This document shows, piece after piece, positions 1 through 19,104 of a DNA stretch of 19,104 nt. The position numbers were made by a program, and so were the translations under genes. The stretch is taken from NCBI GenBank assembly GCA_900553345.1, contig USDE01000005.1:1-19104 (forward strand), in the 5' to 3' direction. Source of the stretch: an uncultured Collinsella sp. (lineage in GTDB: Bacteria; Actinomycetota; Coriobacteriia; Coriobacteriales; Coriobacteriaceae). Position 1 is the stretch's first letter. Each line of letters starts with the position of its first letter. Under the pieces are notes generated by a model. That model did not search any database. It was not told the DNA's origin and saw nothing but the letters and a program-made list of their open reading frames with translations.

Positions 1-969
1 CCAAGTGGTGCCCCACTTGGAGGTGTCGCCGGAGATGTAATCGGACACTGCCTCGTAGATGGAGTCGCCCACCTGCTTCATCATGGAGCAGATGATCACG
101 TCGTCTGCAATGTACTTCTGATCAGAGTCTACGCCGATGGCATAGAAGCCCTTCTCCTGCGCCGCCTGGAAGACGCCGTCGCCGGTCTTGGAGGCAAGCT
201 GCGAAGGATCGCAGGTGGAGTCGGTGATGTACAGGTCGAAAATCTGCTTGAAGTTGTCGAGATACTCGCCCTTGATCTCGTCGTCCTCCTGGTTGTGCTC
301 CTTCTCGAACTCGTAGTAGAGCGGGAGGTTGGCGAGGTGGGTGGTGTAGCGCCAGCTGGAGGAGTCATCCATGCCGGCAGAAGTGAAGGCACCCTCAACG
401 CCAAGCTCGTCCTTGCGGGCCTGGATGTCGTCAGCGCAAGCCTTCAGCTTGTCGAAGGAGTTGATGTCCTCGGCCTTGTAGCCAGCCTTCTCGAGCAGCT
501 GCTTGTTGTAGATGATGCCGTAGCTCTCCTGGACCCAGTCGATACCCAGATCCTTGCCATCGGACTGCAGAGCCAGGGAGTCGTCAATGAGCTCACCGCG
601 GAGCTTGGTATCGGACAGGTCGGCGCAGTAATCCTTCCAGTTCTTAAGACCGGTGGGGCCGTTGACCTGGAACAGGGTCGGAGCGGAGCTCTTGGACATC
701 TCGGACTTGAGCTTCTCCTCGTAGGTGTTGGAGGCGGCGGTCACGATCTTGACCTCGACGCCCTTCTCCTCCTTGTACGCCTTGGCGATCTCCTTCCACT
801 CCTTGTCGACCTCGGGCTTAAATTGGAGGAAGTAAACCTCGGCAGCGTCACCAGAAGCAGAGGAGCCGGAGCCGGCGGAGCCACCGCAGCCCACGAGACC
901 CAGACCAAGAACCGCAGCCGCGGAACCAGCAAAGCCCAGGAACTGCCTTCTGCTCATTTCGTTCTTCAT
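1..969 (-). CDS. Solute-binding lipoprotein, family-1 sugar type N-terminus joined to BMP/PnrA-type C-terminus (partial)
   Basis: The frame is open from ATG at 967-969 to the window edge, giving 323 residues without a stop. The start is preceded by an SD (GAAAGGG). Residues 1-28 are a secretion signal with a twin-arginine stretch (SRRQFLG) and a lipobox LVGC, so Cys28 is the likely lipidated residue of a Tat-exported lipoprotein. Residues of about 45-262 look like a family-1 carbohydrate ABC binding protein (COG1653 style; EVYFLQFKPEVDKEWKEIA, IIYNKQLLEKAGY, YITDSTCDPSQLASKTGD). From about residue 263 the text changes to the BMP/Med/PnrA nucleoside-binding family (GVFQAAQEKGFYAIGVDSDQ, then a TSM/K-like stretch). 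The expected family-1 continuation (an EFA...FYQNGTW-like segment) is absent. The join falls in a TGD motif common to both families and stays in frame. Whether it is a real gene fusion or an assembly chimera cannot be decided here. No permease genes are visible. Confidence 0.8.
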   Translation of the reverse strand, partial: MKNEMSRRQFLGFAGSAAAVLGLGLVGCGGSAGSGSSASGDAAEVYFLQFKPEVDKEWKEIAKAYKEEKGVEVKIVTAASNTYEEKLKSEMSKSSAPTLFQVNGPTGLKNWKDYCADLSDTKLRGELIDDSLALQSDGKDLGIDWVQESYGIIYNKQLLEKAGYKAEDINSFDKLKACADDIQARKDELGVEGAFTSAGMDDSSSWRYTTHLANLPLYYEFEKEHNQEDDEIKGEYLDNFKQIFDLYITDSTCDPSQLASKTGDGVFQAAQEKGFYAIGVDSDQKYIADDVIICSMMKQVGDSIYEAVSDYISGDTSKWGTTW

Positions 970-1075
970 TACAATCCACCCTTTCACACCGTGGCGGCAC
1001 CCTTTGCCGCCGCCTTCGGAGATTGGCTCGGGGACTTTGCCCCTTTTGCTGATTTGTACGATACGCTATTTGGCT

Positions 1076-1091
1076 ACTTGTTTGAACAAGT
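1076..1091. promoter_or_regulatory. Inverted repeat upstream of the binding-protein gene
   Basis: ACTTGTTTGAACAAGT is a perfect inverted repeat with 7-nt arms. A related shorter site, ACTTGACAAGT, lies at 1141-1151. On the minus strand the first site overlaps a weak possible -35 (TTCAAA) placed 17 nt before TATCGT. It could be an operator. The cognate regulator is unknown, and the half-site differs from the GTnTAnAC sites nearby. The leader down to the start codon also holds two small GC-rich hairpins, at about 991-1010 and 1031-1044. Confidence 0.4.
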
Positions 1092-1152
1092 ATTACTAGA
1101 GCGGTAGAAAAACTTCGGTGAACGGTAATTTCAACTTGATACTTGACAAGTT

Positions 1153-1164
1153 TTGTATAAACAA
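1153..1164. promoter_or_regulatory. Candidate TreR/HutC-type operator 1
   Basis: TTGTATAAACAA fits the HutC-subfamily GntR operator pattern GTnTAnAC. It is one base away from the palindrome TTGTATATACAA that I recall for Bacillus subtilis TreR. It lies between the regulator's terminator and the binding-protein gene, about 185 nt before that gene's start, so it could tie that gene to the neighbouring GntR regulator. Confidence 0.45.
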
Positions 1165-1185
1165 TTATTTGTTATCAAATGCAGA

Positions 1186-1234
1186 GAAAACGCCCGGTCA
1201 AGCCGATGCATCGTCGGTTTGACCGGGCGTTTTC
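1186..1234 (-). terminator. Intrinsic terminator of the GntR gene (possibly bidirectional)
   Basis: Arms GAAAACGCCCGGTCA (1186-1200) and TGACCGGGCGTTTTC (1220-1234) are perfectly complementary, and a further short stem (CCGA/TCGG) forms within the loop. The hairpin sits about 40 nt past the stop codon of the GntR gene, with the run of Ts expected of an intrinsic terminator. Confidence 0.75.
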
Positions 1235-1275
1235 GCTTTGAGGGCATGAGTCTCGTCAGGCTGCGAGCTAGCCGG

Positions 1276-1995
1276 CTATCGCTTGGAGTTGACGCGGTAA
1301 TGGAAGATCTCGGGATGCGTGCGGGCATGCGTGACCTCGAACAAGATGCCGTCCGAGGTGTACGACTGGCTCTCCATGACGGCAACGCAGTTGTATTTGC
1401 CGAGGTCAAGATAGCTGCAGTCCTCATCGTTGGCGAGCTCGACACTCACCGTACGACGGCTCGCCATCACTTTGACACCGCGCTTGTGCTCCAGATAGCC
1501 GTAAATAGAATCTGCCGCGATCTCGGGAGTCAGGCCCTTGGCGATCGACGCCAAAAAATAGCCATGGTCCACTTGGCGCGCATTGCCGTTGAGGCTTCGG
1601 ACACGCACCACGCGAATCAACTCCTCGCCCACCTTAAAGCCCAGGCGACGAGAGCGTTGCTCAGTGCAAATCAAATGTTCAAAAGACTTGACCTCGGTCG
1701 ATGCGACGGCATTGTTGCGCTTTGCAAATTCGCCAAACGACTCGACTTCCTCGAGTGCGCCCAGCATGTCGGTTTCGCCCTTGAGCCAAATAACGCGCAC
1801 GCCCTTGCCGTGTATAGGCTGCACAAACATCTGGTCGGCCAGCATGCTCAAGGCGCGTCGAACGGTATTGCGCGTGCAGCCAAACTCCGCGGTCAGCTCG
1901 GCTTCGGTTGGCAGCATCTCCTGAAACGCATAAGTCCCGTTAATGATGCGCGAACGGATCTCGCGGTAGATTCCTTCGTAAATCGCTTTTGGCAT
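1276..1995 (-). CDS. GntR family (HutC subfamily) transcriptional regulator with UTRA domain, TreR-like
   Basis: The protein is 239 residues, normal for the HutC subfamily. Residues of about 3-70 form the winged helix-turn-helix (YEGIYREIRSRIINGTY, LPTEAELTAEFGCTRNTVRR, then the HGKGVRV wing). Residues of about 85-235 are the UTRA effector domain, which in this family binds a (phospho)sugar or similar metabolite. The start is ATG at 1993-1995 with SD AGAGGTG about 7 nt upstream. The gene is divergent from the PTS-phosphatase gene and ends at a strong terminator. GTnTAnAC palindromes occur in its own control region and before the PTS gene, which supports autoregulation and control of the permease. 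The closest functional model is the trehalose repressor TreR, with trehalose-6-phosphate or another disaccharide phosphate as inducer. That assignment is inferred from architecture, operator and the PTS neighbour. Confidence 0.85.
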   Translation of the reverse strand: MPKAIYEGIYREIRSRIINGTYAFQEMLPTEAELTAEFGCTRNTVRRALSMLADQMFVQPIHGKGVRVIWLKGETDMLGALEEVESFGEFAKRNNAVASTEVKSFEHLICTEQRSRRLGFKVGEELIRVVRVRSLNGNARQVDHGYFLASIAKGLTPEIAADSIYGYLEHKRGVKVMASRRTVSVELANDEDCSYLDLGKYNCVAVMESQSYTSDGILFEVTHARTHPEIFHYRVNSKR

Positions 1996-2047
1996 GACTT
2001 CACCTCTAATGAATATGTATGGTTAGGCACGATAGCATTTCTTAAAG

Positions 2048-2059
2048 TTGTTTAAACCG
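2048..2059. promoter_or_regulatory. Candidate TreR/HutC-type operator 2 (regulator control region)
   Basis: TTGTTTAAACCG holds the perfect palindrome GTTTAAAC, which matches GTnTAnAC. It lies about 50 nt upstream of the GntR start codon, where it would overlap the regulator's own promoter (possible -10 TATCGT on the minus strand). This is a natural autoregulation site. A further palindrome, CCGATTATCGG, starts just beyond at 2057. Confidence 0.5.
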
Positions 2060-2083
2060 ATTATCGGCAAAGCGACAGGATTT

Positions 2084-2097
2084 AACCGTTGACGGTT
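2084..2097. promoter_or_regulatory. Inverted repeat in the divergent intergenic region
   Basis: AACCGTTGACGGTT is a perfect repeat with 6-nt arms around TG, in the middle of the GntR/PTS intergenic region. A short palindrome AAACCGGTTT follows at 2110-2119. These could bind a second regulator, for example a LacI-type or global carbon regulator, but nothing in the window identifies it. Confidence 0.3.
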
Positions 2098-2156
2098 TCT
2101 GTCCCGCCCAAACCGGTTTCGATCAAAACTGCCGGTACGACAATCGTCTGGTCCTC

Positions 2157-2181
2157 TACAATGAATCCATTGTTTAAACGT
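2157..2181 (+). promoter_or_regulatory. PTS promoter -10 with overlapping operator 3
   Basis: TACAAT at 2157-2162 is a good -10 element, though no convincing -35 lies 17 nt upstream. TTGTTTAAACGT at 2170-2181 follows directly and contains the same GTTTAAAC core as the site at 2048-2059. It would cover the transcription start, the classic place for repression. The PTS start codon is about 40 nt further on. Confidence 0.5.
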
Positions 2182-2222
2182 TTCACCACGCGCAACGCGC
2201 CTCGATATTCGGGAGGCAGAAC

Positions 2223-4673
2223 ATGCTGCAAAAAATCCAACGCTTTGGCGGGGCAATGTTCGCGCCCGCCATGTTGTTTTCCATATCGGGCCTTATGGTC
2301 GGCGTCTCCGCCCTCGCAACGTCTGCGGATATCGTCGGCGACCTCGCCGTATACGGAACCCCTTGGTACGTTTTTTGGACCATCATCCAGCGCGGCTCGT
2401 GGACGGTCTTTAAGCGCCTTCCGCTCCTTTTTGCCGTAGCGCTGCCCATCGGCCTTGCCCAAAAGCAACCGGCACGTTGTTGCCTCGAGGCGCTCGTGGC
2501 CTATTTTGCCTATTGCTTCTTTTTGAGCGAGATCATCAAGCTGAGCGGAGACAACCTTGGACTTAAGTACCCGTCGTCTTTGACCTCCGCTAGCGGCATC
2601 ACCATCATCGACGGCATCAAGACGCTCGACACCGGCATTATCGGCCCGCTGGCGGTGTCGGCAACCGTCGTCGCCATCCATGACCGCTTCTACGATGTCA
2701 AGGTTCCCGATTGGCTCGGCACCTTCTCGGGCTCCTCGCTGGTCTACCTCATCAGCTTTTTTGCCGTGTTTGCCCTTGCCGCTATCTCGGCCGCCATCGT
2801 GCCCTCCGTATACGCTGTGACCGAAACACTGCGCCACGCACTTGCGGGCGTCGGCCCCTTTGGCGTGGGCATCTTTGTGCTTTTGGAGCGAGCGCTCGAG
2901 CCCATGGGGCTGCACCACCTGCTCTACATGCCGATCTACTACGACAACCTGGTCATTAACGACGGCATCTACGCCACGTGGAGCAGCTTGCTCCCCATCC
3001 TCTCCCATAGCACGCGCCCCCTTAATGAACTTGCGCCGTGGGCCGGTTTTACCGCCACCGGCTGGGTCAAGCTCTTTGGCCTTCCCGCCATCGCAGCCGC
3101 GTTCTACTCCACCGCAAAACCAGAGCGCCGCGCCGGCCTCAGGGCCATCCTTGTTCCCGCCATCATCGCCTCGGTGGTTTGCGGCGTTACCGAGCCACTC
3201 GAGTTTCTCTTTATGTTCACCCACCCCGGGCTCTTTTTTCTCTACGCCGTCTTATCGTCTTGCCTTGCCACAACCATGAATCTCTTTGGCATCGTCGGCA
3301 TCTTCTCGGGCGGCCTCATGGAGATGGCAGCCTTCAACTTTATTCCGCTCATGCGGACGCATGCCGGCTCCTACCTTTTGGCGCTCGGTATCGGCCTTGC
3401 CTTTAGCCTCATCTTTTTTGTTAGTTTTCGAGCACTCATCTTGATCTATGACCTTAAGACGCCGGGCCGCGAGGATCATGTCGCCAATCGCGCGGCAATC
3501 GATCATTTAACGGGAAGCGGCTTTGCCAAAGAGCAATCTCCCAATGACGAGGTCAATAGTCGATCCGATCAAGATCACGTCCTCGCTGAGCGGGTAATTC
3601 AGCTTTTAGGTGGCGTTGGCAATATTGTGGGCGCAACCAACTGCGCCACGCGCCTGCGCGTCGAGGTCGCAGACCCTTCCATCGTTGCAGATAACGCGGC
3701 GTTTGTCGCGGCGGGCGCCAAGGGCCTCATCATTACGGGCAAGACCGCCCAGGTGATCATCGGCATCTCCGTTCCCCGCGTTAAAGAGCATTTTGACCAG
3801 ATCATGGGCCTCGAACCGGGTTTTGCATTCGCCGCCTCGCCTTCTCATGCCGCCGACGCCACCAAAAAGCATGGCAATGTCTGCTTCTTCGACATCGACG
3901 GTACGCTCGCCTGGCAAGATCCCAGACTTGCCCAGGAGCTTCCCGAGGGCGAGCGAGACCTCTCCCCCTATCCCAACGAGACGGTTGCACAGGCAATTCG
4001 CACGTTTGTCGCCAACGGCAACAAAGCCTTTATCTGTACGGGGCGCACCCTCAGCTGCATCCATCCCAAGCTGCTCGAGCTGCCGTGGGCAGGCGTCGTG
4101 TGCCTCGCGGGCGGTTACGCCGAACTCGAGGGGCGTATCGTGCGAAATGCAGCCATAAACCCTGGTCTGCTACAGCGCCTCGCCCCCTATCTCGAGCAAT
4201 CGGGCGAGGTCATTCGCTTTGAGGGCATCGATCGCGTCGTGCGCATGAGTGCAGATGCCCCCGAGACGTACGGCTACGCACGCACCGTGGGCGACGCCGT
4301 CACGCAACTTGAGCACTACAACGCCTATAAAATTCTTATGTCCACACCACTTGCCAACCGCATCGCCCAAGATGAAGAGCTTGGACCTCTGCTCTGCCTC
4401 AACGAGCTCGAGCTCGAGGTCACAGAAATCTCGCCGCGCGAGTGCACCAAACGGGCCGGAATCAAGGCTGTGCTTGACGCCCTGGGACCAGACCACGGCA
4501 CCGTATATGGCATTGGCGACGCGAGCAACGACATCGCCCTCATGGAGGCGGTCGATGTTGGCATCGCCATGGGCAACGCGCCGGACTTCCTCAAGGAAAA
4601 GGCCGACTACGTAACCGACAGCTTCGACCACGACGGCGTCGTCACCGCGCTCGAACACTTTGGGCTTATCTAG
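2223..4673 (+). CDS. PTS EIICB (alpha-glucoside/maltose type) fused to a Cof-type HAD-IIB phosphatase
   Basis: This single 816-residue chain joins a sugar importer to a phosphatase. Residues 1-425 are the membrane EIIC domain of the GlvC/MalX-like group (QRFGGAMFAPAMLFSISGL start, GLHH around His231-232, VTEPLEF around 322-328). Residues of about 455-530 are the EIIB domain, with phospho-acceptor Cys474 in NCATRLR. After a linker of about 25 residues comes a HAD-IIB domain (about 552-816) with all motifs: FDIDGT (nucleophile Asp557, acid/base Asp559), CTGRT (Thr606), Lys743, and GDASND (Asp766, Asp770). Known GlvC-type permeases are about 530 residues and stop after EIIB. The protein should phosphorylate a sugar during uptake using an EIIA in trans. 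The tethered phosphatase may then dephosphorylate the product or a toxic sugar phosphate. ATG 2223 has SD GGGAGG six bases upstream. No phospho-glucosidase gene is nearby. The sugar is not certain. Confidence 0.9.
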   Translation: MLQKIQRFGGAMFAPAMLFSISGLMVGVSALATSADIVGDLAVYGTPWYVFWTIIQRGSWTVFKRLPLLFAVALPIGLAQKQPARCCLEALVAYFAYCFFLSEIIKLSGDNLGLKYPSSLTSASGITIIDGIKTLDTGIIGPLAVSATVVAIHDRFYDVKVPDWLGTFSGSSLVYLISFFAVFALAAISAAIVPSVYAVTETLRHALAGVGPFGVGIFVLLERALEPMGLHHLLYMPIYYDNLVINDGIYATWSSLLPILSHSTRPLNELAPWAGFTATGWVKLFGLPAIAAAFYSTAKPERRAGLRAILVPAIIASVVCGVTEPLEFLFMFTHPGLFFLYAVLSSCLATTMNLFGIVGIFSGGLMEMAAFNFIPLMRTHAGSYLLALGIGLAFSLIFFVSFRALILIYDLKTPGREDHVANRAAIDHLTGSGFAKEQSPNDEVNSRSDQDHVLAERVIQLLGGVGNIVGATNCATRLRVEVADPSIVADNAAFVAAGAKGLIITGKTAQVIIGISVPRVKEHFDQIMGLEPGFAFAASPSHAADATKKHGNVCFFDIDGTLAWQDPRLAQELPEGERDLSPYPNETVAQAIRTFVANGNKAFICTGRTLSCIHPKLLELPWAGVVCLAGGYAELEGRIVRNAAINPGLLQRLAPYLEQSGEVIRFEGIDRVVRMSADAPETYGYARTVGDAVTQLEHYNAYKILMSTPLANRIAQDEELGPLLCLNELELEVTEISPRECTKRAGIKAVLDALGPDHGTVYGIGDASNDIALMEAVDVGIAMGNAPDFLKEKADYVTDSFDHDGVVTALEHFGLI

Positions 4674-4789
4674 CCGAGCCCCTCGCCGCGTTTGCGACCG
4701 CAAGACTCAATCGTCTTCAACCGCCGCGCTCGACGCCCCAATGTGGCAATATGTTGTCTGCATAATGCAACAGTGCAACCTAAGAAAGA

Positions 4790-5815
4790 ATGCGAGAACC
4801 CGTGTCCAGTCCGTTTACCAGCTTTTTAGCCCAGCACTTTGACCAGATTAACGACTATCTGGCCACGTTTTTTGACGGACAGGCGACTTCCGCCGATATC
4901 GAGCGTTACCTGTATACCCCGCTCTCGGCATTTACGGCCAATGCCGGCAAGCGCCACCGCCCGCTCATCTGCATGCTCGCCGCGACCGCGGTAGGTGGCA
5001 GCTTTGAGAGCGCCCGCAGCGCGGCGGCAGCTATCGAGCACTTTCAGTCGGGCGCGCTGATCCACGACGACATCGCCGACAACGGCCAACTGCGCCGCGG
5101 CAAGCCCTGCATGCACCTTACCGAGGGCACGGGACTCGCCATCAACTGCGGCGATTTAGCGCTCACCATGGTCACCAAGACGGTTCTCGACGACCCCGCG
5201 CTCGAGCCCAACGTAAAGCTGCGCGTACTCCACGAGCTCACCGAGATGATCGTCCGCACCATCGAGGGCCAGGCACTCGACCTGGGTTGGGTCCGTGACG
5301 GGCGCTTCGACATCTCGGTCGACGATTACCTGGACATGGCGACGCACAAGACCGCGTACTACAGCGGAGCCACGCCGCTTGCCACCGGAGCCATCATCGG
5401 CGGAGGCAGCGAACAGCAGGTCGAGGCGCTGCGCGCCTTTGGCCTGCACACGGGCCTTGCCTTCCAGATCCAAGATGATCTGCTCAACTTGATCGGTACC
5501 AAGGAGGCCGCCAACAAGGACTTCCGCACCGATATCACCGAGGGCAAGCGCACCCTCGTCGCCGTGCACGCCCTGTCAGACGAGCGTTATCACGACGAGG
5601 TCGAGGCAATCCTTTCCTCGGGCACCGAGGACCCCGTGCAACTTGCACGCGCCGTGGAAATCTTCCAGGAGACCGGCTCCATCGATTACGCCCACACTTA
5701 CGCGCTCGACCTGACCGCCAAGGCGAAAGCGGCCATCGAGAACGTTGAGCTCGATCCGCACGCACGCGAGCTGTTCCTCTCCATGGCAGATTTCTTTGTG
5801 GAGCGCCTTAACTAG
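4790..5815 (+). CDS. Polyprenyl diphosphate synthase (trans-isoprenyl, short/medium chain)
   Basis: At 341 residues this is an all-helical trans-prenyltransferase that condenses isopentenyl diphosphate with allylic diphosphates in the cytoplasm, feeding quinone or lipid-carrier synthesis. The substrate-binding motif GKRHRP is near residue 54. The first Asp-rich motif is complete (DDIAD, Asp93-Asp97) and is followed by the usual RRGKP. The HKTAYY segment is present. The second Asp-rich motif reads QDDLLN (Asp229, Asp230, Asn233), so the last Asp of the usual DDxxD is Asn. The chain-length determinant cannot be read reliably. The start ATG has only a weak AAGAAAG upstream, and GTG at 4802 is an alternative. 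The 116 nt before it show no clear terminator for the PTS gene and a modest CATAAT -10-like box at 4761. Confidence 0.88.
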   Translation: MREPVSSPFTSFLAQHFDQINDYLATFFDGQATSADIERYLYTPLSAFTANAGKRHRPLICMLAATAVGGSFESARSAAAAIEHFQSGALIHDDIADNGQLRRGKPCMHLTEGTGLAINCGDLALTMVTKTVLDDPALEPNVKLRVLHELTEMIVRTIEGQALDLGWVRDGRFDISVDDYLDMATHKTAYYSGATPLATGAIIGGGSEQQVEALRAFGLHTGLAFQIQDDLLNLIGTKEAANKDFRTDITEGKRTLVAVHALSDERYHDEVEAILSSGTEDPVQLARAVEIFQETGSIDYAHTYALDLTAKAKAAIENVELDPHARELFLSMADFFVERLN

Positions 5816-5952
5816 CGGGGTTATAAAACCTGTCAGCAGCGTATTTGGGTACAACTTGCTACACTGTTGAGTGCATGTTTATGCATCCCTTTGCGTTGTC
5901 TATCCGACACACGCTCAAATAGTACGAATGGTACGCCGAAAGGGGTTCGTTC

Positions 5953-6858
5953 ATGGAACCTATTACAACGGGCATGCAGGGAGCAGCCGTCGAGGACGTC
6001 CAGTCCCGCCTTCTGCAGCTCGGCTATACAATCGATGACACCGAGGTCGCCGATAAGCGCTTTGGCGCCACCACCGAGCAGGCCGTTGGCACCTTTAGGC
6101 TCGACAGCGGTCTTGCCGCCGGTCACGCCGTTGACATTCCCTGCTGGAGTGCCCTGGTCGACGCCTCGTATAAACTGGGCGATCGTACGCTCTATCTGCG
6201 TATGCCCAATTTCCATGGTGCCGACGTTCAGGCCCTGCAGAGGGCGCTCAACGTTTTGGGCTTTGCCTGCGGTGAGGACGACGGCTATTTTGGCCCGCAC
6301 ACCGAGGCCGCTCTGCAGCAGTTCCAAGAAAATGTCGGCCTGTTTGCCGATGGCATGGCGTTCCAGGATACCTACGCCTATATCAACCGCCTGCATCACG
6401 TGTGGGAGGGCAAGCCCTCGGTTACCGAGGCCGAGTCGCGCATCGGCTTTGCCCGCGCCGCCAACGTTCTCGAGCGCTTCCAGATTGCCGTCATCGGTGA
6501 GGACCCCATCGCGCGTAGCGTTGCATCGCGCATGTGGAACATCGCCACGGCGACGACCGACAGCAGCGGCATGATGCTTTGCGATTCCGAGGTTCCGACC
6601 GACGTGGATCTGGTGCTCGAGATTGCAAGCGATGAGCTGCCCGCAGATGCTGCACCGCGCGCCACGATCGCCCTTGCCGAGTGTCACAACCTTGCACAGC
6701 GCATCCGCACCGCCAATGTCGCCGCGCAGCAAAAGCCCGCGCGCATTCGCATTGAGCTCACGGGCATGACGCGCTACAACGGAACCTTCACCGCAAGTGA
6801 TGCGCAGACACTCGCCGTACGCCTGCTCGATGGCGTTTGCGATGCCCTCGCAGATTAG
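5953..6858 (+). CDS. Peptidoglycan-binding domain protein with degenerate amidase-like C-terminus (CwlM-like)
   Basis: The 301-residue protein has no signal peptide and no transmembrane segment, so it appears cytoplasmic. Residues of about 5-62 and 84-142 are two PG_binding_1 repeats (GAAVEDVQSRLLQLGY...RFGATTEQAVGTF and ADVQALQRALNVLGF...YFGPHTEAALQQFQ). Residues of about 165-301 align by eye to the fold order of Amidase_3. An opening strand IAVIG is followed by a helix ARSVASRMWN and a closing RIELTGMTRYNG...AVRLLDGV that resembles the VEVGYLSN...IA.AI end. The Zn-binding His and Glu residues are missing. The layout of two PGB domains plus amidase, without export, recalls mycobacterial CwlM, which regulates MurA rather than cutting murein. 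The start has SD GAAAGGGG. A regulatory role is inference; the PGB domains are firm. Confidence 0.75.
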   Translation: MEPITTGMQGAAVEDVQSRLLQLGYTIDDTEVADKRFGATTEQAVGTFRLDSGLAAGHAVDIPCWSALVDASYKLGDRTLYLRMPNFHGADVQALQRALNVLGFACGEDDGYFGPHTEAALQQFQENVGLFADGMAFQDTYAYINRLHHVWEGKPSVTEAESRIGFARAANVLERFQIAVIGEDPIARSVASRMWNIATATTDSSGMMLCDSEVPTDVDLVLEIASDELPADAAPRATIALAECHNLAQRIRTANVAAQQKPARIRIELTGMTRYNGTFTASDAQTLAVRLLDGVCDALAD

Positions 6859-6896
6859 GTAAACTAAACGGGTTGCTTTTGGGCAACACCACACAT

Positions 6897-6971
6897 TGGG
6901 ACGTAGTTCAACGGTAGAACTCCGGTTTTTGGTGCCGGCTGTTGGGGGTTCGAATCCCTCCGTCCCAGCCA
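6897..6971 (+). tRNA. tRNA-Gln (anticodon TTG)
   Basis: The acceptor arms TGGGACG/CGTCCCA pair over 7 bp. The D arm GTTC...GAAC, anticodon stem CCGGT/GCCGG with loop TTTTGGT, and T arm GGGGG-TTCGAAT-CCCTC all form. Loop position 34-36 reads TTG, the Gln anticodon for CAA. The discriminator base G is followed by an encoded CCA. The gene is 75 nt long and starts about 40 nt after the PGB protein gene, past a small GTTGC/GCAAC hairpin with no T run, so co-transcription is possible. Confidence 0.95.
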
Positions 6972-6978
6972 AAGAAAC

Positions 6979-7015
6979 AAGCCTCTCGAACGCATAGCCG
7001 ATCGGGAGGTTTTTC
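6979..7015 (+). terminator. Intrinsic terminator after tRNA-Gln
   Basis: AAGCCTCTCGA and TCGGGAGGTTTTT form a GC-rich stem with one G-T pair, followed by a T run. It lies within 10 nt of the tRNA 3' end and should end that transcript. Confidence 0.75.
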
Positions 7016-7026
7016 TTGTGGGCAAG

Positions 7027-7043
7027 CGGAGGGATTCGAACCC
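7027..7043 (-). repeat. Inverted 17-bp copy of the tRNA-Gln T-arm/acceptor sequence
   Basis: On the minus strand this reads GGGTTCGAATCCCTCCG, identical to 6946-6962 of the tRNA-Gln gene but inverted. No D arm, anticodon arm or matching acceptor can be found on either side, so it is not a full tRNA. It may be a tRNA fragment left by an integration or inversion at the tRNA 3' end. The following 150 bases (7044-7193) show no gene or other clear element. Confidence 0.6.
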
Positions 7044-7193
7044 GCAAGGCAACACAACTTCTCGTCCAGCACGGGAAAATCTACCTTCAAAAGACAGGCG
7101 CCCCAAGCCCATTAGGACCAAGAGCGCCTTACATCTAGAAAATATAAGCCTAGTTCCGAAAAGCGAGCCGCATGCAACAACCAAGTAACCACA

Positions 7194-7330
7194 GGCCCCG
7201 GGAGAGCGGGGACACCGGCTTAGGTTTATCGCGAGTTCCGCACGAACAGGAGGCCACTTAATGTGGCCTCCGTCGTGAGCAGGACTGTAGAGCAGGAAAC
7301 CTAAGCCGGTGTCCACGCTCTCCCGGGGCC
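7194..7330. repeat. Nested inverted repeat, copy 1 of a palindromic element
   Basis: The outer arms 7194-7227 and 7297-7330 are 34 nt each and pair at 33 of 34 positions. Inside is a second hairpin, GGAGGCCAC/GTGGCCTCC with loop TTAAT (7249-7271). The right inner flank GCAGGACTGTAGAGCAGG, which runs into AAACCT, is identical to part of the hairpin at 12026-12104. The element begins 9 nt after the stop of the JetD-like gene on the minus strand. No T run follows the stem on either strand, so it does not look like a standard terminator. It could be a dispersed palindromic or MITE-like repeat, or an mRNA 3'-end stabiliser. Confidence 0.8.
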
Positions 7331-7338
7331 GGCGAAAT

Positions 7339-9546
7339 TTAGTTGTTCAGCATGCGGTCGAAGCTTCCCGAGTCGCCATCCCGATAGTCGGCGGTCATCA
7401 GAATCTCCTGCGGAATGCGTCCGCCCTCACGCAGCACGTTGCGGAACTGTACGCGCGTGACCATGGGCAGATCCTTGATCGTCGCCGCCAGGTTCTGCGG
7501 TACACCCTGGTTGGCAGCCGCGGGCTCGCACTCACCGCCGGCCTTCACGCGGCGCTTGTGCTCGGCGAGCATGGCGCGATACATACCGGCATGCAGGCGA
7601 ATCTCAACAACATTGGCATTACGGGTCTGCTCGACAATGCGCGCACCCTCTCGGTCGATATCGCCCACGTAGTAGACATAGTTAAAGCGATAGCCGATCT
7701 CGGCCAGATAATCATCCAGTGCGTGCGAAACGCTCGCCTTGCAGCCACCGCCAAAGATCACGCCACCCACCTTGGTGCCAAAAAGCTTAGCGTGCTTGCG
7801 GCCGCGCAGGAGCTTGACGATCTCGTCATAGGTGTCCAGGTTCTCGACCATAATGAACGGCTTGTCGGCGCCCAGCGTAAAGAAGCCCGTAAAGTGCACA
7901 GGACGGTTGGGAGCAACCTTGATTGCCTGCATGCTAATGCCCTTTTCGGTCATACGCCGAATCAGACGCTCGCCATGCTTGCCGTCAAAGGCCTTCTCAT
8001 CGTTAAAAATCTGGTAGGCGCGCTGGCGACGCGAAGCGACCGGCGTGTCGGCGCCGCGATTCTGCTCTATCCAAGCCTGGATGATCGCAATCTCCTCGGC
8101 AATCTTGCGGTTGGACATCTCGTTGTGCTGAGTGCGCTGCGGAGCCTTATTGCCGTCCTTGCCCTCGACCTTAACGATTTGAGTCTGCTGCTCCTTAATC
8201 TTGGAGAGCGCCGTAGGCGTGGGAACGACCTTGAGCAGCTGCCTGCCCAGGACACGGGCCAGAGCAAACGCCGAAACCTCGCCATGAGCGGGCGGCTCAG
8301 GCTGCTGGGCGGCCGCATCGTTTGCAGTCGGTTTGGGCTGCGCCTGGGATTTGCGCTTGGAATCTGCCTGAGCTTTGCGCTCTTGCTTTGGCGCGGACGG
8401 ACCCTTTTGCGAGCGCTCGGGCTTGTCCCCCTTCGCCGGCTGGCGCTTGGGCTGCTCCACCAGGGCCTCAGCCTTCGCATCCTTGCTTTGCATCGCTGCC
8501 TTCTCGGCCGCGGCCTCGGCATTTGAGCCACGACCGCCGCGGTGACGACGGCGGCGGGGCTTGCTTGAGGCGCTCTCCCCTGTCTGCTTATCAGCGGACT
8601 GTTGAGCTTTGACCTCGGTGTCAGCCGCAGACTGCGACTCGGAAGGTTGCTGCTCGCAAGCCACCGGCTCAACGGTTTTCTCAGTTTGTTCGGCCTTATC
8701 GGCCTGAGCGGTCGAAGCCGGCTCGCCCTTCTCCTGACGCTTTATGGGATACGCGCGCCCCGCAAAACCGCGGCCGGGACGACACGAACCCGAAACCCTC
8801 TTGGCAGACTCCTCAGCATCGCCTGCAACCTCGGAAGGCTCTTCAGCCTCATGCGCGACATCCTGCTGCACAGCCTTAAAGTGAGCACCGCGACGACGCT
8901 TGGGCTCTTGGGCCTCCACGGGCTTTTGCTCCTCCACGGGCTTTTGCTCCTCCACGGGCTTTTGCGACTCAGCGGCAACCTCGGTCACAACAGTCTCGGT
9001 ATCGAGTTCATCCTTTTGAGCCACGGCACGACGGAAGCGCTCCTGCTGGGCACGGCGCTGAGCATCGCGCTTTCCGCCCCCACCAAAACCGCCGCGGCCG
9101 GCCTTGGCCGTAAAGGCGCGAACGACGTTCTCATCGAGCAGCTCGTCGGTATCGACATGCTCGCGCGGGGCCGTTTCCACCGAAGCGGGCGCCTCGACAG
9201 CGTCCTCGACGGCCTCTTCGACAGCCTCGGCAAGCTGCTCCTGAGCATCACTTATCTCGGCATGAATGGTATAGAACGCCGGACGTCCGTTAATGCCGCT
9301 GCCCTCGATCTTGGTAACGATCTTTGCCGCGATGAGTTCGTCGCGCATCGCCTTGGTGTCGCATTCCTTATCGACGGAGCGGAAAATCTGCGCCAGCGCG
9401 CTCGACTTGATCTTGAGTGCCTTGCGGCAGAGCAGGTCGTAGGCAACTAGCTTGGCGCGCTCGGCAGAAAGCGACGTCTGGCTGCTCAGACGCTCAGCCA
9501 GGGCATCGACATTATTTTGGTTATCGGAATATACCGTCTTGGCCAC
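7339..9546 (-). CDS. Orphan JetD-like (DUF2220) Toprim-domain protein with long charged linker
   Basis: I place the start at GTG 9544-9546, because SD GAAAGGGG lies just before it. An ATG at 9570 would put that SD inside the gene. This gives 735 residues. Residues of about 1-90 form a helical N-terminal domain. Residues of about 90-440 are low-complexity, rich in Glu, Lys, Gln, Ala and Arg, with a KPVEEQ repeat and an Arg/Gly patch (KPRRRRHRGGRGS). The C-terminal 270 residues carry JetD-like signatures: RAYQIFNDEKAF, VENLDTYDEI (Glu568), VIFGGGCKAS and YYVGDIDREGARI (Asp629, Asp631). The last three fit the acidic metal site of a Toprim fold. In Wadjet systems JetD is the nuclease subunit that cuts plasmid DNA loaded by the JetABC SMC complex. 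No jetABC genes are present, so the role here is unknown: possibly housekeeping DNA processing, possibly RNA-related given the Arg-rich linker. The Toprim call is strong; function is open. Confidence 0.75.
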   Translation of the reverse strand: MAKTVYSDNQNNVDALAERLSSQTSLSAERAKLVAYDLLCRKALKIKSSALAQIFRSVDKECDTKAMRDELIAAKIVTKIEGSGINGRPAFYTIHAEISDAQEQLAEAVEEAVEDAVEAPASVETAPREHVDTDELLDENVVRAFTAKAGRGGFGGGGKRDAQRRAQQERFRRAVAQKDELDTETVVTEVAAESQKPVEEQKPVEEQKPVEAQEPKRRRGAHFKAVQQDVAHEAEEPSEVAGDAEESAKRVSGSCRPGRGFAGRAYPIKRQEKGEPASTAQADKAEQTEKTVEPVACEQQPSESQSAADTEVKAQQSADKQTGESASSKPRRRRHRGGRGSNAEAAAEKAAMQSKDAKAEALVEQPKRQPAKGDKPERSQKGPSAPKQERKAQADSKRKSQAQPKPTANDAAAQQPEPPAHGEVSAFALARVLGRQLLKVVPTPTALSKIKEQQTQIVKVEGKDGNKAPQRTQHNEMSNRKIAEEIAIIQAWIEQNRGADTPVASRRQRAYQIFNDEKAFDGKHGERLIRRMTEKGISMQAIKVAPNRPVHFTGFFTLGADKPFIMVENLDTYDEIVKLLRGRKHAKLFGTKVGGVIFGGGCKASVSHALDDYLAEIGYRFNYVYYVGDIDREGARIVEQTRNANVVEIRLHAGMYRAMLAEHKRRVKAGGECEPAAANQGVPQNLAATIKDLPMVTRVQFRNVLREGGRIPQEILMTADYRDGDSGSFDRMLNN
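8913..8963 (-). repeat. 18-bp in-frame tandem repeat (KPVEEQ)
   Basis: The unit CCTCCACGGGCTTTTGCT occurs twice exactly and a third time nearly complete, encoding KPVEEQ-KPVEEQ-KPVEAQ in the linker of the JetD-like protein. The near identity suggests recent slippage and possible length variation between strains. Confidence 0.85.
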
Positions 9547-9651
9547 GGGGCCCCTTTCATATGTACACATATACGTCTATATGGTACAACGCGCGCCCTT
9601 ATCCACGCAAAACATCTGCTAGAACACTCGGGCATCGCCCGCTTTTGCATG

Positions 9652-9691
9652 AAAAAAGACCGAGCCCGCGCAGCCGCGGACCCGGTCTTAT
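9652..9691 (-). terminator. Intrinsic terminator of cstA
   Basis: On the minus strand, AAGACCGGGTCCGCGG and GCGCGGGCTCGGTCTTTTTTC form a long GC-rich stem followed by six Ts. It lies about 40 nt after the cstA stop and separates cstA from the JetD-like gene, which therefore needs its own promoter. Confidence 0.85.
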
Positions 9692-9729
9692 CGAGTTGTA
9701 TAGATGTGACGTTCAACTCGTCAGGTCGA

Positions 9730-11619
9730 TTACGCCTTGGCAGCCTCGGCGTCGGCGGGAGCCTCGGCGGCAGCGGCGCGGCCATACTCGACTTTGCCCA
9801 TCTCGGACCACTCGGGCTCCTCGTCGGGCATGGAACCGGCCTCCTTGCCGAAGAACTCCTTGAGGCAGTTGACGGCAACGATGAGGCCCAGGACCATCAG
9901 CAGGACGGCGAAGACGAGCTGCAGGCCCTTGGTAGCGGCGACGGAAACGGCAGCCGTGGTGGCGGTAGCCGGGATGGTGCCGAAGAAACCGTAGGCCTGG
10001 ACGGCGGTCATGCAGCCCATGGCGCTCTGGACCAGCGAAGTGAAGGTGCAGCAGAGCAGGAAGGCGACGGGCACGTAGAGCATCCAACCCTTGCGGCCGG
10101 TGCACTTACAGAACACGGCGAGGGTGATCATGGTCATACCGCCGAGCAGCTGGTTAGAAGCACCAAAGAGCGGCCAGATGTTGGCATAGCCACCAAAGGC
10201 GAGGGCGAGGCCAGGAAGCAGGGTAACGACCGTGGCGAACCAGGGGTTGCCGAGGACCTTCATGTAGCCGGCCTTGGACTCGATGGCCAGGGCGTCGTTG
10301 GTCTGGGCAAAGAACTCGGAGAACGAGGTGCGAGCGATGCGGGCGACGGCATCGAGCGAGGTCAGGGCCAGAGCGGAAACGTTCATGGTCATGAAGACGG
10401 TTGCGAGCGTGCCGTCAACGCCGAAGGCCTGCATACCGCGGGAGATGCCGGCGGCGAAGATCTGGAACGGGGTGGAAGCGACACCGGCGTTAAGGGCGCC
10501 GGTACCGGCGGTGTTCATGTCGGAGAACATGATACCGGCGACGATGATGGCAAGGATGCCGACGAAGGACTCGACGATCATGGCGCCATAACCGACCTTG
10601 ACGGCGTCCTGCTCCTTCTCGACCTGCTTGGAGGAGGTACCAGAAGAAACGAGGCTGTGGAAACCGGAGAGAGCACCGCAGGCAACGGAGACAAACAGGA
10701 CCGGGAACATCATGCCCGAGGCATTGCTAAAGCCGGTGAAGACCGGAGCGGTGATGGTGGCCTGGCCGTTAGCGCCCAGGACGACGATACCGAGGACAGC
10801 GCAGACGATCATGACGATCATCATGATGGAAGTGAGGTAGTCGCGAGGGGTCTTGAGCATCTGGATGGGCATGGCACCGGCAAAGACCAGGTAGACCATG
10901 ACGACGGCGAACCACTGGAACTTGTCCAGGTAGACCGGGAACTGCATGCCGACGGCGAACATGAGGACCATGAGTACCACGCCGGTGACGAACTCGGCAG
11001 CGCCGGTGAGGTTGAACTTCTTCTGGGCCCAACCAAAGGCCATGGCGACGAAGGTGAACAGGATGGAGATGGTGCCAGCGCAGCCAGCGGCATAGGACTT
11101 GGTGAAGTCGATGGCACCGGTAGCAGCACCAGAAGCGTCAACGGCCGGGGTGAACATGAACGTCTTGCAGACCATGTCGGTGAAAGCGGCGATGACGATG
11201 ATGCAGAACAGCCAGCAGAACAGCAGGAACAGGCGACGGCCGGTCTTGCCGATGTACTTCTCGATGAGCTGGGCCAGGGACTTGCCGTTGTTCTTCATCG
11301 AGGCGTACAGGGCGCCAAAGTCGTGGACGGCGCCAAAGAAGATGCCGCCGACGAGGACCCAGAGCACGACGGGAAGCCAGCCGAAGGCCATAGCGACGAT
11401 CGTACCCGTAACAGGGCCGGCACCGCAGATCGAGCTGAACTGGTGCGAGAACGCGGTGAAGGCGGAGACGGGCGAGAAGCTGTTGCCGTCTTTCATGCGC
11501 TTGGCCGGCGTGAGGGCCTCTTTGTCAACGCCCCACTTGTTGGCCAGCCATCGGCCATAGCCCAGATAGCCGCAGGCGAGCACCGCCGCGGCCACAACCA
11601 TGAGCAAAACTCCGTTCAT
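9730..11619 (-). CDS. cstA: Carbon starvation protein CstA family transporter (peptide/pyruvate)
   Basis: The 629-residue polytopic membrane protein begins with a hydrophobic helix and the CstA signatures AFSHQFSSICGAGPVTG (about 55-72) and GGIFFGAVHDFGALYAS (about 90-107). It has many membrane segments up to about residue 580 and a short acidic, Ala-rich cytoplasmic tail. CstA/BtsT proteins import pyruvate and, in several species, peptides. Codon use is strongly biased toward a few preferred codons, much more than in neighbours, which suggests high expression. The start at 11617-11619 has SD GAGGAGG at good spacing. Upstream lie a strong promoter and a long leader with an intrinsic terminator and a short Ile/Val-rich ORF, so expression is probably controlled by attenuation. 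A dedicated terminator follows. The substrate cannot be read from the sequence. Confidence 0.93.
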   Translation of the reverse strand: MNGVLLMVVAAAVLACGYLGYGRWLANKWGVDKEALTPAKRMKDGNSFSPVSAFTAFSHQFSSICGAGPVTGTIVAMAFGWLPVVLWVLVGGIFFGAVHDFGALYASMKNNGKSLAQLIEKYIGKTGRRLFLLFCWLFCIIVIAAFTDMVCKTFMFTPAVDASGAATGAIDFTKSYAAGCAGTISILFTFVAMAFGWAQKKFNLTGAAEFVTGVVLMVLMFAVGMQFPVYLDKFQWFAVVMVYLVFAGAMPIQMLKTPRDYLTSIMMIVMIVCAVLGIVVLGANGQATITAPVFTGFSNASGMMFPVLFVSVACGALSGFHSLVSSGTSSKQVEKEQDAVKVGYGAMIVESFVGILAIIVAGIMFSDMNTAGTGALNAGVASTPFQIFAAGISRGMQAFGVDGTLATVFMTMNVSALALTSLDAVARIARTSFSEFFAQTNDALAIESKAGYMKVLGNPWFATVVTLLPGLALAFGGYANIWPLFGASNQLLGGMTMITLAVFCKCTGRKGWMLYVPVAFLLCCTFTSLVQSAMGCMTAVQAYGFFGTIPATATTAAVSVAATKGLQLVFAVLLMVLGLIVAVNCLKEFFGKEAGSMPDEEPEWSEMGKVEYGRAAAAEAPADAEAAKA

Positions 11620-11654
11620 TACATTTCCTCCTCTAAAAAGAACTTCCCAGACAT

Positions 11655-11693
11655 AAAAAATGAGGGCCGTCGGTTGCGCTCGACGGCCCTCAT
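11655..11693 (-). terminator. Leader terminator (attenuator) upstream of cstA
   Basis: ATGAGGGCCGTCG (on plus 11660-11672) and its perfect complement at 11681-11693 form a 13-bp stem with an 8-nt loop. On the minus strand it is followed by a T6 run (plus 11655-11660). It sits between the promoter and the cstA SD, about 35 nt before the start codon. Unless it is disrupted it should stop transcription before cstA. Confidence 0.85.
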
Positions 11694-11744
11694 CTTCATC
11701 AGCCGCCCGTTATCGTACGGGCTAGCTGTATGTGCTAACCCGCA

Positions 11745-11789
11745 TCAGATAATTACTACGCTGATAATGTTTAGCTGATGCGTGAACAT
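11745..11789 (-). CDS. Putative leader peptide ending in Ile/Val codons
   Basis: ATG at 11787-11789 opens a 14-codon ORF, MFTHQLNIISVVII, then TGA. AGAGGA lies about 11 nt upstream as a possible SD. An in-frame ATG at 11813 would give 22 residues but has no clear SD. Six of the last seven codons are Ile or Val, as in branched-chain amino-acid attenuators. The stop codon lies in a segment (11741-11748) that can pair with the CAT CAG codons of the ORF (11775-11782). Those same codons can instead pair with 11697-11703, next to the terminator. A second pair of mutually exclusive hairpins shares 11719-11721. This arrangement fits ribosome-position sensing, but the peptide is too short to be certain. 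Confidence 0.5.
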   Translation of the reverse strand: MFTHQLNIISVVII

Positions 11790-11860
11790 GTCTAAGAAAT
11801 CCTCTTCAATCATGATGTGAACGATCCGTGCGTGTTCACATCCCCCAGTGGTTGAAAAGG

Positions 11861-11889
11861 AGTATGAAACTTTAGTTACCTAAAGTCAA
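11861..11889 (-). promoter_or_regulatory. cstA promoter with internal palindromic operator
   Basis: On the minus strand TTGACT (plus 11884-11889) and CATACT (plus 11861-11866) are separated by exactly 17 nt, a strong housekeeping sigma promoter. Between and partly over them, 11869-11886 reads ACTTTAGTTACCTAAAGT, a perfect inverted repeat with 7-nt arms. A protein bound there would block RNA polymerase. Transcription would begin near 11853, giving a leader of roughly 230 nt. Confidence 0.75.
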
Positions 11890-12025
11890 CGCAAATATGT
11901 AATGAATTTTCCACTTTTTTGAATTTCTCGGTATAAAACGCCACTGACCTCGGACTTTACCCAACAAAAGTTTTTGCATGAGAGATGCCCCTGAGAGCCG
12001 CGGGAGCCGGGCGGCGCATGTGAAC

Positions 12026-12104
12026 TTTCCTGCTCTACAGTCCTGCGCAAGACGAAGGCCACTTAATGTGGCCTTCGTCTTGCGCAGGACTGTAGAGCAG
12101 GAAA
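12026..12104. repeat. Perfect 37-bp-arm hairpin, copy 2 of the palindromic element
   Basis: Arms 12026-12062 and 12068-12104 are perfectly complementary around the loop TTAAT. The core GGCCACTTAATGTGGCC and the flank GCAGGACTGTAGAGCAGG, followed by AAACCT, are shared with the element at 7194-7330. It lies 42 nt past the tsaD stop, between tsaD and the cstA promoter. No T run follows it. The stretch 11890-12025 between this hairpin and the cstA promoter is AT-rich in part and shows no gene. Confidence 0.85.
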
Positions 12105-12146
12105 CCTTATATCCGGCCCCTCCGGTCGGGGACCGCACCCATACGA

Positions 12147-13307
12147 CTACAGCGTCATGTTTGGATCGGCGTCGACGTCGAACGGCGAGATTTCACCTCG
12201 GTCGAATTTACGGCGAGCGACCTCCGCGATCATGGCGGCGTTATCGGTGCAGGCAGACAAGGGCGGCACCGTTACGCGGATCCCCTGACGCCCGAGTTTC
12301 CTGATCATCATCTCGCGCAGATGCGGGTTGGCCGAGACGCCGCCGCCGATGCAATACTCCTTGCACCCGGTAGCATGCAGGGCGTTTTTGGCCTTCTTGT
12401 ACTGCACGTCAAAGACCGCCGCCTCAAACGAAGCCGCTAGGTCGGGAAGGTGAATCGTGCGCCCGGCCTTGGTCTCCTGCTCGATGTAGAGCGTCACCGC
12501 CGTCTTGAGGCCCGAAAGCGAGAAGCGGTAGTCTCCCCTGCTGTTCAGCGCACGGGGGAAATCGATCGCCTTGGGGTTGCCCGTCTCGGCAAGCTTGGAG
12601 ATGATGGGGCCGCCGGGATAGCCAAGGCCCAGTGCCTTTGCCACCTTGTCGAAGGCTTCGCCCACGGCGTCGTCAAGTGTCTCGCCAAGCACCTCGTAGT
12701 CGCCCCATGCCCTTACGTGCACGAGCATGGTGTGCCCGCCCGAAACAAGCGTAAAGATAAACGGCGGCTTGAGGTCGGGCTGCGCCAACAGGTTGGCAAA
12801 CAGGTGACCCTCCAGATGATTGACGCACACCAGCGGTTTGCCGGCAGCATACGCAAAGCCCTTGGCAAAGGCGACACCCACCACCAAGGCACCCACCAGG
12901 CCCGGACCTTGCGTCACGCCCACGGCGGCAAGCTCACTTGGTGCAATGGCTCCGCCCGTAAGGCCCAGCGACGCTGCGGCGTCCTCGAGTGCCGCGTCCA
13001 CGACGCTCACGATGACCTCAACGTGCTTGCGCGAGGCGATCTCGGGCACCACGCCGCCAAAGCGAGCATGAAAATCAATCTGTGTCGACACCTGGTTGGC
13101 CAGTATATTGCCATCCGCATCGATAATTGCCACGGCTGTCTCGTCGCAGGAGCTCTCGATGGCAAGCACCAGGCGGCGGCGCTCGATTTCGGCACGCTCC
13201 TCAGCGGTGCGTTCGGGCGCGGGCAGCGGCCATACACGCTGTTCGGCAGCCGTCGGCTCGGGCGAGGCATTGTCGAGAGGAAGCACCAGGGGCAGCGGCG
13301 CCGTCAT
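12147..13307 (-). CDS. tsaD: tRNA N6-threonylcarbamoyladenosine transferase TsaD
   Basis: The protein is 386 residues and carries the TsaD core from about residue 45 (LVLAIESSCDETAVAI), the metal-binding HLEGH (His164, His168) and Asp355 in CTDNAAM, with GGGVSANPHLR between. TsaD transfers the threonylcarbamoyl group onto A37 of ANN-decoding tRNAs, working with TsaB and TsaE, whose genes lie upstream. The first 44 residues are not TsaD sequence. They begin MTAPLPL and, read further upstream in the same frame, continue the end of RimI (GYYGAGKDAIV just before the Met). The listed ATG overlaps the tsaB-rimI stop as ATGA and has AAGGA nearby, so coupled translation would still give TsaD. In the ancestor it was probably one fused chain. 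It is the last gene of the operon, followed by the long hairpin. Confidence 0.93.
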   Translation of the reverse strand: MTAPLPLVLPLDNASPEPTAAEQRVWPLPAPERTAEERAEIERRRLVLAIESSCDETAVAIIDADGNILANQVSTQIDFHARFGGVVPEIASRKHVEVIVSVVDAALEDAAASLGLTGGAIAPSELAAVGVTQGPGLVGALVVGVAFAKGFAYAAGKPLVCVNHLEGHLFANLLAQPDLKPPFIFTLVSGGHTMLVHVRAWGDYEVLGETLDDAVGEAFDKVAKALGLGYPGGPIISKLAETGNPKAIDFPRALNSRGDYRFSLSGLKTAVTLYIEQETKAGRTIHLPDLAASFEAAVFDVQYKKAKNALHATGCKEYCIGGGVSANPHLREMMIRKLGRQGIRVTVPPLSACTDNAAMIAEVARRKFDRGEISPFDVDADPNMTL

Positions 13308-14503
13308 GACGATGGCATCCTTGCCGGCACCGTAATAGCCAGAGCGGCATAGAGCGCAATTGCGGCCTCGTTGCCGTCCTCAACCTCAAGCGAAGCCGTG
13401 GTGCAGCCGAGCATCTGCGCGTCATAGCTCACGTGCGACAGAAGCTTGCGGGCGATGCCCTCGCGGCGATGCGCCGGATCGACGGCAACGTCCATAATCT
13501 GCACGTCCCCGTCGACGACCATACCGCCGGCAAGACCCAGCAGACGGCCGTCGTCGTGCGCCACCCACCAGCTACGTGGCGCGGCAACGTCCTCGCCCAG
13601 CTCGGACAGGAACATGCCCGGCGTCCACGCCTCGTGTCCGGCGCCTTCAAAGCAGGCGGTCTCCAGTGCGCTCGCGCCCTCGGCATCCGCCGCGCCCATG
13701 GGGCGGAATTGCAGATGACGTCCGGCAAGCTCGTCGGCAACACCTGTCACCTCACTCTGCGCGCTCTCGGCAAGGCCCAGACGCTTGCGCTCGTTTTCCT
13801 CGGCGTCCGAAAGGCGCGTATAGATCGGCAAGACGCGAGCCGGATCGCCATCGCCTGCGGCGTGCGCCATCAGCAGGCCCTCGCCCGAGGGCCACCACAG
13901 GTCTCGCTCCACGCAGCGCGCCGTCTCATCCTCGCCCAGCAGTTTGCCATAACGCACGAGACCGTCACCAGTCAGCTGAACCTGATCCCAGTCCGCGGTC
14001 TGGCGCCACTCATCAAGCGCCACGGCGGCCTTGACCACGCGCTCGCGCTCAAACAGACGCTCGGGGCCCTCATCCCCCAGCACATAGAGCGCCGGGTACA
14101 CCTCGCCGCGCATGGCATCGGCAAGAACACCAAGCTTGCCGCGCACGCCGGCCTTCCATGCCGTCCAGGCGCAAGCATCGAGCGTCGACACGCCCAGCAA
14201 CGGCACATTGGCACCGTGCGCCAGACCCTTTGCGGTGGAGATGCCGATACGCACGCCCGTAAACGAGCCGGGACCGCGACCGACCACATAACAGCCGACA
14301 TCGCTGCGATCCAGGCCGGCCTGCTTCAGTAGGTCATCAACAGTATTCACGAGCTCCACGTTGGCATGGCGGCGACACAGATGGTCCCCACTTACCAGCT
14401 TTGCCTCGCCTGTCTGCACGTCAATCCAGCTTGCCGCGCAGGCAAGCATGTCGGTCGATGTGTCGAGCGCCACCACCAGCGCGTTGTCGTTATGCAAGCT
14501 CAT
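13304..14503 (-). CDS. tsaB: TsaB-RimI fusion, RimI part frameshifted at its C-terminus
   Basis: ATG 14501-14503 is preferred over an upstream TTG because AAGG lies about 8 nt before it; this gives 399 residues overlapping tsaE by 14 nt. Residues of about 8-215 are TsaB, the scaffold paralogue of TsaD, with GRGPGSFTGVRIGISTAKGL near 76-95. Residues of about 262-390 are a RimI-type GNAT acetyltransferase with the acetyl-CoA loop HRREGIARKLL; RimI acetylates ribosomal protein S18. The chain ends ALYAALAITVPARMPSS, whereas GNATs continue GF...YY....DA..M after ALYAAL. That ending, GYYGAGKDAIVM, is present in another frame directly after (13305-13340). About 7-10 residues are missing and the frame is shifted. 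RimI activity is doubtful; TsaB is intact. It could also be a sequencing or assembly indel. Confidence 0.9.
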   Translation of the reverse strand: MSLHNDNALVVALDTSTDMLACAASWIDVQTGEAKLVSGDHLCRRHANVELVNTVDDLLKQAGLDRSDVGCYVVGRGPGSFTGVRIGISTAKGLAHGANVPLLGVSTLDACAWTAWKAGVRGKLGVLADAMRGEVYPALYVLGDEGPERLFERERVVKAAVALDEWRQTADWDQVQLTGDGLVRYGKLLGEDETARCVERDLWWPSGEGLLMAHAAGDGDPARVLPIYTRLSDAEENERKRLGLAESAQSEVTGVADELAGRHLQFRPMGAADAEGASALETACFEGAGHEAWTPGMFLSELGEDVAAPRSWWVAHDDGRLLGLAGGMVVDGDVQIMDVAVDPAHRREGIARKLLSHVSYDAQMLGCTTASLEVEDGNEAAIALYAALAITVPARMPSS

Positions 14504-14996
14504 CTTGTACAGCCTTATCAATCAAATGGGAAAGCTCAATCGCGCGCTCGCCGTGTGCCTCGAGCGTTATCGTTCGCACGTCGCTGTCGTCCTCATCGCG
14601 CTTAAGCGTCACCGAAAGATACTCATCTGTCAGTTCATCCTGAAACTGCTCGCCCCATTCCAGCAGGCAAACACCCTCATAGCCCAGCACGTCAAAAATG
14701 CCCGTATCCTCAAGCTCGTAGGCATGCTCCAGGCGGTACAGATCAAAATGGAACAGCGGAATACGCCCTTGGTCATGAACGGCCATGAGTGCGAACGTAG
14801 GGCTTGTGACCATATGCTCATCGCCCAGAGCGCGCGAAACGCCCTTGGTAAAGTGGGTTTTGCCCACCCCGAGGCCGCCGGTCAAGATCAGCACATCGCC
14901 ATCTTCTAGACACGGTGCGACCAGCTCGCCAAAATGCTCCGTATCGGCAGTACGGGCCGTTCTATAGGTACCTACCCCCAGGCGCTCCAGGGACAT
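14490..14996 (-). CDS. tsaE: tRNA threonylcarbamoyladenosine biosynthesis ATPase TsaE
   Basis: The 168-residue P-loop protein has Walker A GGLGVGKT at 40-47, the family motif SPTFAL, and HFDLYRL. TsaE hydrolyses ATP to reset the TsaBD complex during t6A synthesis. ATG at 14994-14996 has GGAG five bases upstream. It follows the glycosylase gene by 15 nt and overlaps tsaB by 14 nt, consistent with translational coupling. The length is normal for the family. Confidence 0.95.
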   Translation of the reverse strand: MSLERLGVGTYRTARTADTEHFGELVAPCLEDGDVLILTGGLGVGKTHFTKGVSRALGDEHMVTSPTFALMAVHDQGRIPLFHFDLYRLEHAYELEDTGIFDVLGYEGVCLLEWGEQFQDELTDEYLSVTLKRDEDDSDVRTITLEAHGERAIELSHLIDKAVQDELA

Positions 14997-15011
14997 ATAC
15001 GCTCCTTATTA

Positions 15012-15632: not shown

Positions 15633-15640
15633 AGCGGCTC

Positions 15641-16786: not shown

Positions 16787-16788
16787 AA

Positions 16789-18945: not shown

Positions 18946-18974
18946 AATCACCTCCATGCTGCACAGACTATGAC

Positions 18975-19084: not shown

Positions 19085-19104
19085 CTCAGTTCGATGCGAC
19101 GGCT

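Follow-up and report, generated by a model that had tools for sequence, protein, structure and literature searches.

At the left edge of a 19,104-nucleotide stretch of Collinsella DNA (here called the window) a single open reading frame passes from one family of binding proteins into another, and the question it raises is whether this is a genuine hybrid gene or a product of the way in which the sequence was obtained. The frame occupies window 1-969 on the minus strand, comprises 323 residues counted from its ATG and is still open where it leaves the window at the left edge; a GTG start further upstream, at 987, gives a 329-residue version of the same frame. The initial annotation held that the frame switches from a sugar-binding protein to a BMP/PnrA protein without a stop, and this was borne out both by the uninterrupted minus-strand frame from 969 to 1 and by Pfam searches. 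In the 329-residue frame SBP_bac_8 was matched at residues 66-253 (E = 2.7e-21), SBP_bac_1 with 8.4e-14 and Bmp at residues 264-325 (2.4e-11), and no single Pfam family model, which the annotation had considered would argue against a chimera, spanned the whole chain. The split was the same when the two parts were searched separately, as had been proposed: window 184-969 alone returned SBP_bac_8, SBP_bac_1 and a TAT signal, with one further match below the cut-off, and window 1-183 alone returned Bmp (1.2e-11), with DOMON below the cut-off. The first 262 residues of the 323-residue chain belong to an SBP_bac_8/SBP_bac_1 sugar-binding protein (SBP) and the last 61 to a Bmp/PnrA protein. Both domains are incomplete, SBP_bac_8 (PF13416) being matched over profile positions 1-172 of 279 and Bmp (PF02608) over positions 190-253 (195-254 when that piece was searched alone) of 301, with the window edge cutting the latter domain. 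The first 20 positions of the window form an inverted repeat, two 8-bp arms around a 4-base loop (CCAAGTGG TGCC CCACTTGG), which is perhaps linked to the point at which the contig stops.

The origin of the head (window 198-969, minus strand) can be traced to the front part of a Collinsella sugar ABC-transporter solute-binding protein, with a TAT-type signal, that is truncated at the join. A search of 58 relatives with window 1-1100 gave matches in 23. In 16 of them identity of 95-99% extended from query base 1 as far as 924-930 (window ~171-177) and ended at the join, the SBP gene being intact; one of the remainder matched at 70% over query bases 254-927 and six gave short matches only. Comparison with other strains, a check suggested by the initial annotation, thus found the intact gene without the tail in these 16 relatives. 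Among 32 loci from the genome_contigs collection, 19 were from Collinsella and matched residues 1-264 only, 12 were more distant SBP genes and one (L083, from a metagenome-assembled genome of Candidatus Faecousia faecigallinarum) was alone in matching just residues 257-323. Full-length homologues in many genomes would have marked a known fusion; there was none in the 58 relatives and no locus among the 32 covered the whole chain, the one protein of this build among the best protein matches being P0012, which has a variant tail and is considered below. The best match among plasmid records, an 899,693-base record of Collinsella aerofaciens, likewise covered the SBP side only (query 1-927).

The Collinsella locus L128 is collinear with window 174-18399 at 95-97% identity, save for a break at 12012-12055; window 18400-19104 is left out of this alignment because L128 ends there. 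On these matches, the head and the window up to 18399 are assigned to Collinsella. Residues 1-262 resemble the Collinsella carbohydrate ABC transporter extracellular solute-binding protein (SBP_bac_8/SBP_bac_1), and the loci L068 and L128 have the same regulator and PTS-like neighbours as the window (names given by eye). The intact Collinsella protein differs in being 438 residues long, in continuing as TGDDATNEFATGKAV and in being followed by two permease-like genes (by eye), unlike the gene in the window. One cluster of intact SBP proteins (P0149) has 5048 members.

Other parts of the window were noted in passing. At 2223-4673 there is an 816-residue frame in which, by eye, a PTS sugar permease is joined to a HAD-type phosphatase, and since L068 carries an 817-residue frame of the same kind this permease-phosphatase fusion is probably real in Collinsella. 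At 13304-14521 a TsaB-like protein appears by eye to be fused to a RimI-like acetyltransferase, adjoining TsaD-like and TsaE-like genes. The 75 bases at 7225-7299 have a 100% match elsewhere in L128, at 13496-13570 beside the break in its alignment with the window, and are perhaps a short dispersed repeat.

The tail (window 1-176, minus strand) has quite another history. When window 1-215 was searched alone, 16 of the 58 relatives matched, all within the first 39-45 bases, which comprise the SBP side and the word shared by the two genes at the join (see below), and at the threshold of that search the tail DNA itself was matched in none of the 58. L083 is 82% identical to the tail at the nucleotide level. 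Of 136 genomes of the genus to which L083 belongs, 20 matched the tail, 11 of them across 106 bases or more and the others over short stretches only, the best being L085 with 88% over 201 bases. The donor's own tail DNA was found neither among these 136 genomes (best 88%) nor in a sample of 400 genomes of the family (best 81%), and a search of viral contigs with a degenerate version of the BMP stretch gave no match. At the protein level, residues 262-323 (62 residues) are identical to P0001-P0003, which are BMP proteins without an SBP part. The contigs that carry P0001 reach 17.6 kb; P0003 ends at its C-terminus in CLLYTSDAADPRQPEG, which we take by eye to be a translated sequencing adapter, and it was given less weight because its end looks like adapter read-through. 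Residues 262-323 thus resemble the BMP/PnrA-type protein (PF02608) of Candidatus Faecousia and its relatives, the native context of which is QIASKTGDGVFQAAQEKGFYAIG, and comparison of the sequences assigns the tail to an internal piece of a BMP gene from a Candidatus Faecousia-like member of the Clostridia, cut by the window edge. The native genes differ in having a lipoprotein-like start of their own and in preceding an ABC ATPase-like gene (by eye). Faecousia is in a different phylum from Collinsella. Recombination confined to a single Collinsella genome was also considered as a source of the tail and was rejected, because BMP-like genes were absent from all 16 genomes with this SBP and, in the 12 of 58 relatives in which such genes did occur, were at most 37% identical.

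What the two genes have in common is a short word at the join. It had been suggested that a brief stretch around TGD, expected in both families, lay at the switch point; a shared stretch is indeed there, but it is longer than the 10 nt first proposed (ACCGGCGACG) and reaches 21 nt in two native BMP loci. The native BMP protein reads QIASKTGDGVF, the residues preceding TGDGVF being mostly QIASK in native BMP genes, and the native SBP reads QLASKTGDDA. The BMP gene of L085 and the Collinsella SBP gene have an exact common run of 21 nt, TTGCCTCCAAGACCGGCGACG, at window 177-197 on the minus strand. Among the fetched loci this 21-mer was present in three of eight distinct Collinsella contexts, that of the nearest genome included, and in 20 of 53 Collinsella locus records (duplicates counted). 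On the other side, it was present in two of 24 native BMP loci (L085 and L092), the other 22 having between one and seven mismatches; this count omits L084 and L106 (the same place as L083), L089 (the same as L113) and L094 (which starts past the join). A pattern search found it in two of the 136 genus genomes, both places lying within the BMP match. The length of 21 nt rests on relatives of the donor because the donor was not found at the DNA level (best 88%), and the run common to the SBP gene and the window's own donor may extend slightly more or slightly less far upstream.

A smallest k of 21 is usual in metagenome assemblers. A review describes chimeric contigs, in the case of closely related species, as arising from metagenome assembly graphs linked through shared k-mers (PMC7299287). 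The window resembles the inter-genome chimeric contigs of short-read metagenomes in that its origin changes abruptly at a word about as long as the smallest k, in the nearness of the window edge to the join and in the occurrence of several partners for one gene; no feature was found in which it departs from them. An exact word at least as long as the smallest k (21 nt) was found in native genes of both sides (L085, L092 and three of the eight Collinsella contexts), and the origins of the two sides are distinct, one being Collinsella and the other Faecousia-like Clostridia. We therefore consider, from the shared in-frame word, the distance between the organisms, the intact gene in relatives, the nearby edge and the recurrence of the join described below, that the apparent fusion is very probably an assembly artefact at a contig end, in which a shared k-mer led to the misassembly of Collinsella with another gut bacterium. 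In the sequenced sample a strain of Collinsella would have been present together with a Faecousia-like clostridium, the former carrying the 21-base word in its SBP gene and the latter carrying it, in the same frame, in its BMP gene. At a small k the assembler graph would merge at this word, and the Collinsella contig would be extended by some 176 bases into the wrong genome before ending. No stop interrupts the frame, since the shared word is read in the same phase in both genes, within ASKTGD. Since an assembly error has likely joined the genes of two organisms, the joined frame is not to be regarded as a real gene. We infer a metagenomic or otherwise mixed assembly as the source of the window, and a contig end at its edge.

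An important consideration in weighing this explanation is whether the same join occurs elsewhere. Among the best 120 of 893 matches to the tail and the best 120 of 7989 matches to the whole chain, P0012 alone has both domains. It joins the same SBP to a BMP protein at the same ASKTGD|G as the window and extends to the natural BMP C-terminus, and it is represented by one sequence on one 9.6-kb contig, seen as protein only. It differs from the window at one of 264 head residues and five of 62 tail residues, and its tail is at best identical at 60 of 62 residues to a listed BMP protein. The presence of two BMP alleles at one point on a near-identical head fits two separate joins at the shared word, and fits these better than one inherited fusion. 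What the sequence comparisons show directly is the two origins, the presence of the word in native genes of relatives and a second occurrence of the join in which the partner is another allele.

The recurrence can be read in another way, and this is one of the points that speak against an artefact: a join that reappears in a second assembly might be a rare real fusion. On such a reading clostridial DNA would have been transferred into Collinsella and homology-guided or illegitimate recombination would have produced an in-frame hybrid binding protein. The open frame is in its favour, as is the fact that the join has been seen twice and that P0012 reaches the natural BMP C-terminus, and both types of bacteria live in the gut. 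However, the hybrid was absent from the 58 relatives and the 19 Collinsella loci, the tails of the window and P0012 differ whilst their heads are one residue apart, and both Pfam domains are cut, so that recombination of this kind is extremely unlikely. We would give equally little credence to a real in-frame sugar- and nucleoside-binding hybrid that had arisen on more than one occasion, by way of the 21-base word, from gut bacteria so far apart and was expressed in Collinsella. A real fusion was rejected because the SBP gene is intact in relatives, none of the 58 gave a match to the tail DNA and the tail of the second chimera is a different one.

A variety of other joins involving the same SBP came to light. 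A search with the SBP tail returned, among the best 120 of 3570 matches, six 410-residue proteins (P0262, P0266, P0269, P0270, P0272 and P0275) in which PF17757, which we take to be the UvrB interaction domain of Mfd, is followed by SBP residues 332-438. The join has the same coordinates in all six, at DAQKATE, and each is one sequence on one contig, seen at the protein level. The commonest Collinsella SBP allele at this point is GATGCCCAGAAGGCCACCGAG, in 39 of 53 locus records (duplicates counted), and this exact 21-mer was present in four of 31 genomes from the clostridial genus to which G796 belongs, in all four lying within an Mfd-like gene that has 89-98% identity to the heads of these proteins. 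The other SBP allele (that of L068), which was the first pattern tried, occurred in none of the 31. The six proteins are likely to be false database entries. The same SBP was also found joined to PF13568 (P0251), PF01520 (P0241) and PF01588 (P0179), each on one contig. Of 34 proteins with 90% or higher identity to some part of this SBP, 25 were flagged as having a non-aligning end; sequence reading covered six of the 25 (P0179, P0241, P0251, P0262, P0266 and P0275) as well as P0258. The reverse product, a BMP head with an SBP tail, was not present among the best 120 of the 3570 matches to the SBP tail.

The repeated joins also bear on the suggestion that the chimera was a physical molecule, formed before assembly by PCR template switching or library ligation at the shared word. 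A shared stretch of 21 nt could prime template switching too, but the same join point recurs in P0012 with another tail allele and the Mfd-like join recurs in six proteins, and a rare molecule would be expected to prevail only seldom in assembly over the abundant true path. This origin is accordingly very unlikely, and we infer that graph merging, rather than chimera formation in the library, made the join. Of the two possibilities that the initial annotation left side by side, recombination or misassembly by way of a shared stretch, it is misassembly that is favoured by the intact gene, the distant tail, P0012 and the Mfd-like case, and a biological chimera is not supported.

The apparent fusion is thus without importance as biology. 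It does provide a clear and checkable example of the way in which a 21-base word common to two gut bacteria can produce an intact-looking fusion gene, and such a gene may afterwards be entered in protein databases as a cluster in its own right; P0012 and the six Mfd-like/SBP proteins have the look of such entries. Those who mine metagenomes for fusions should check the joins for a shared word of assembler-k length.
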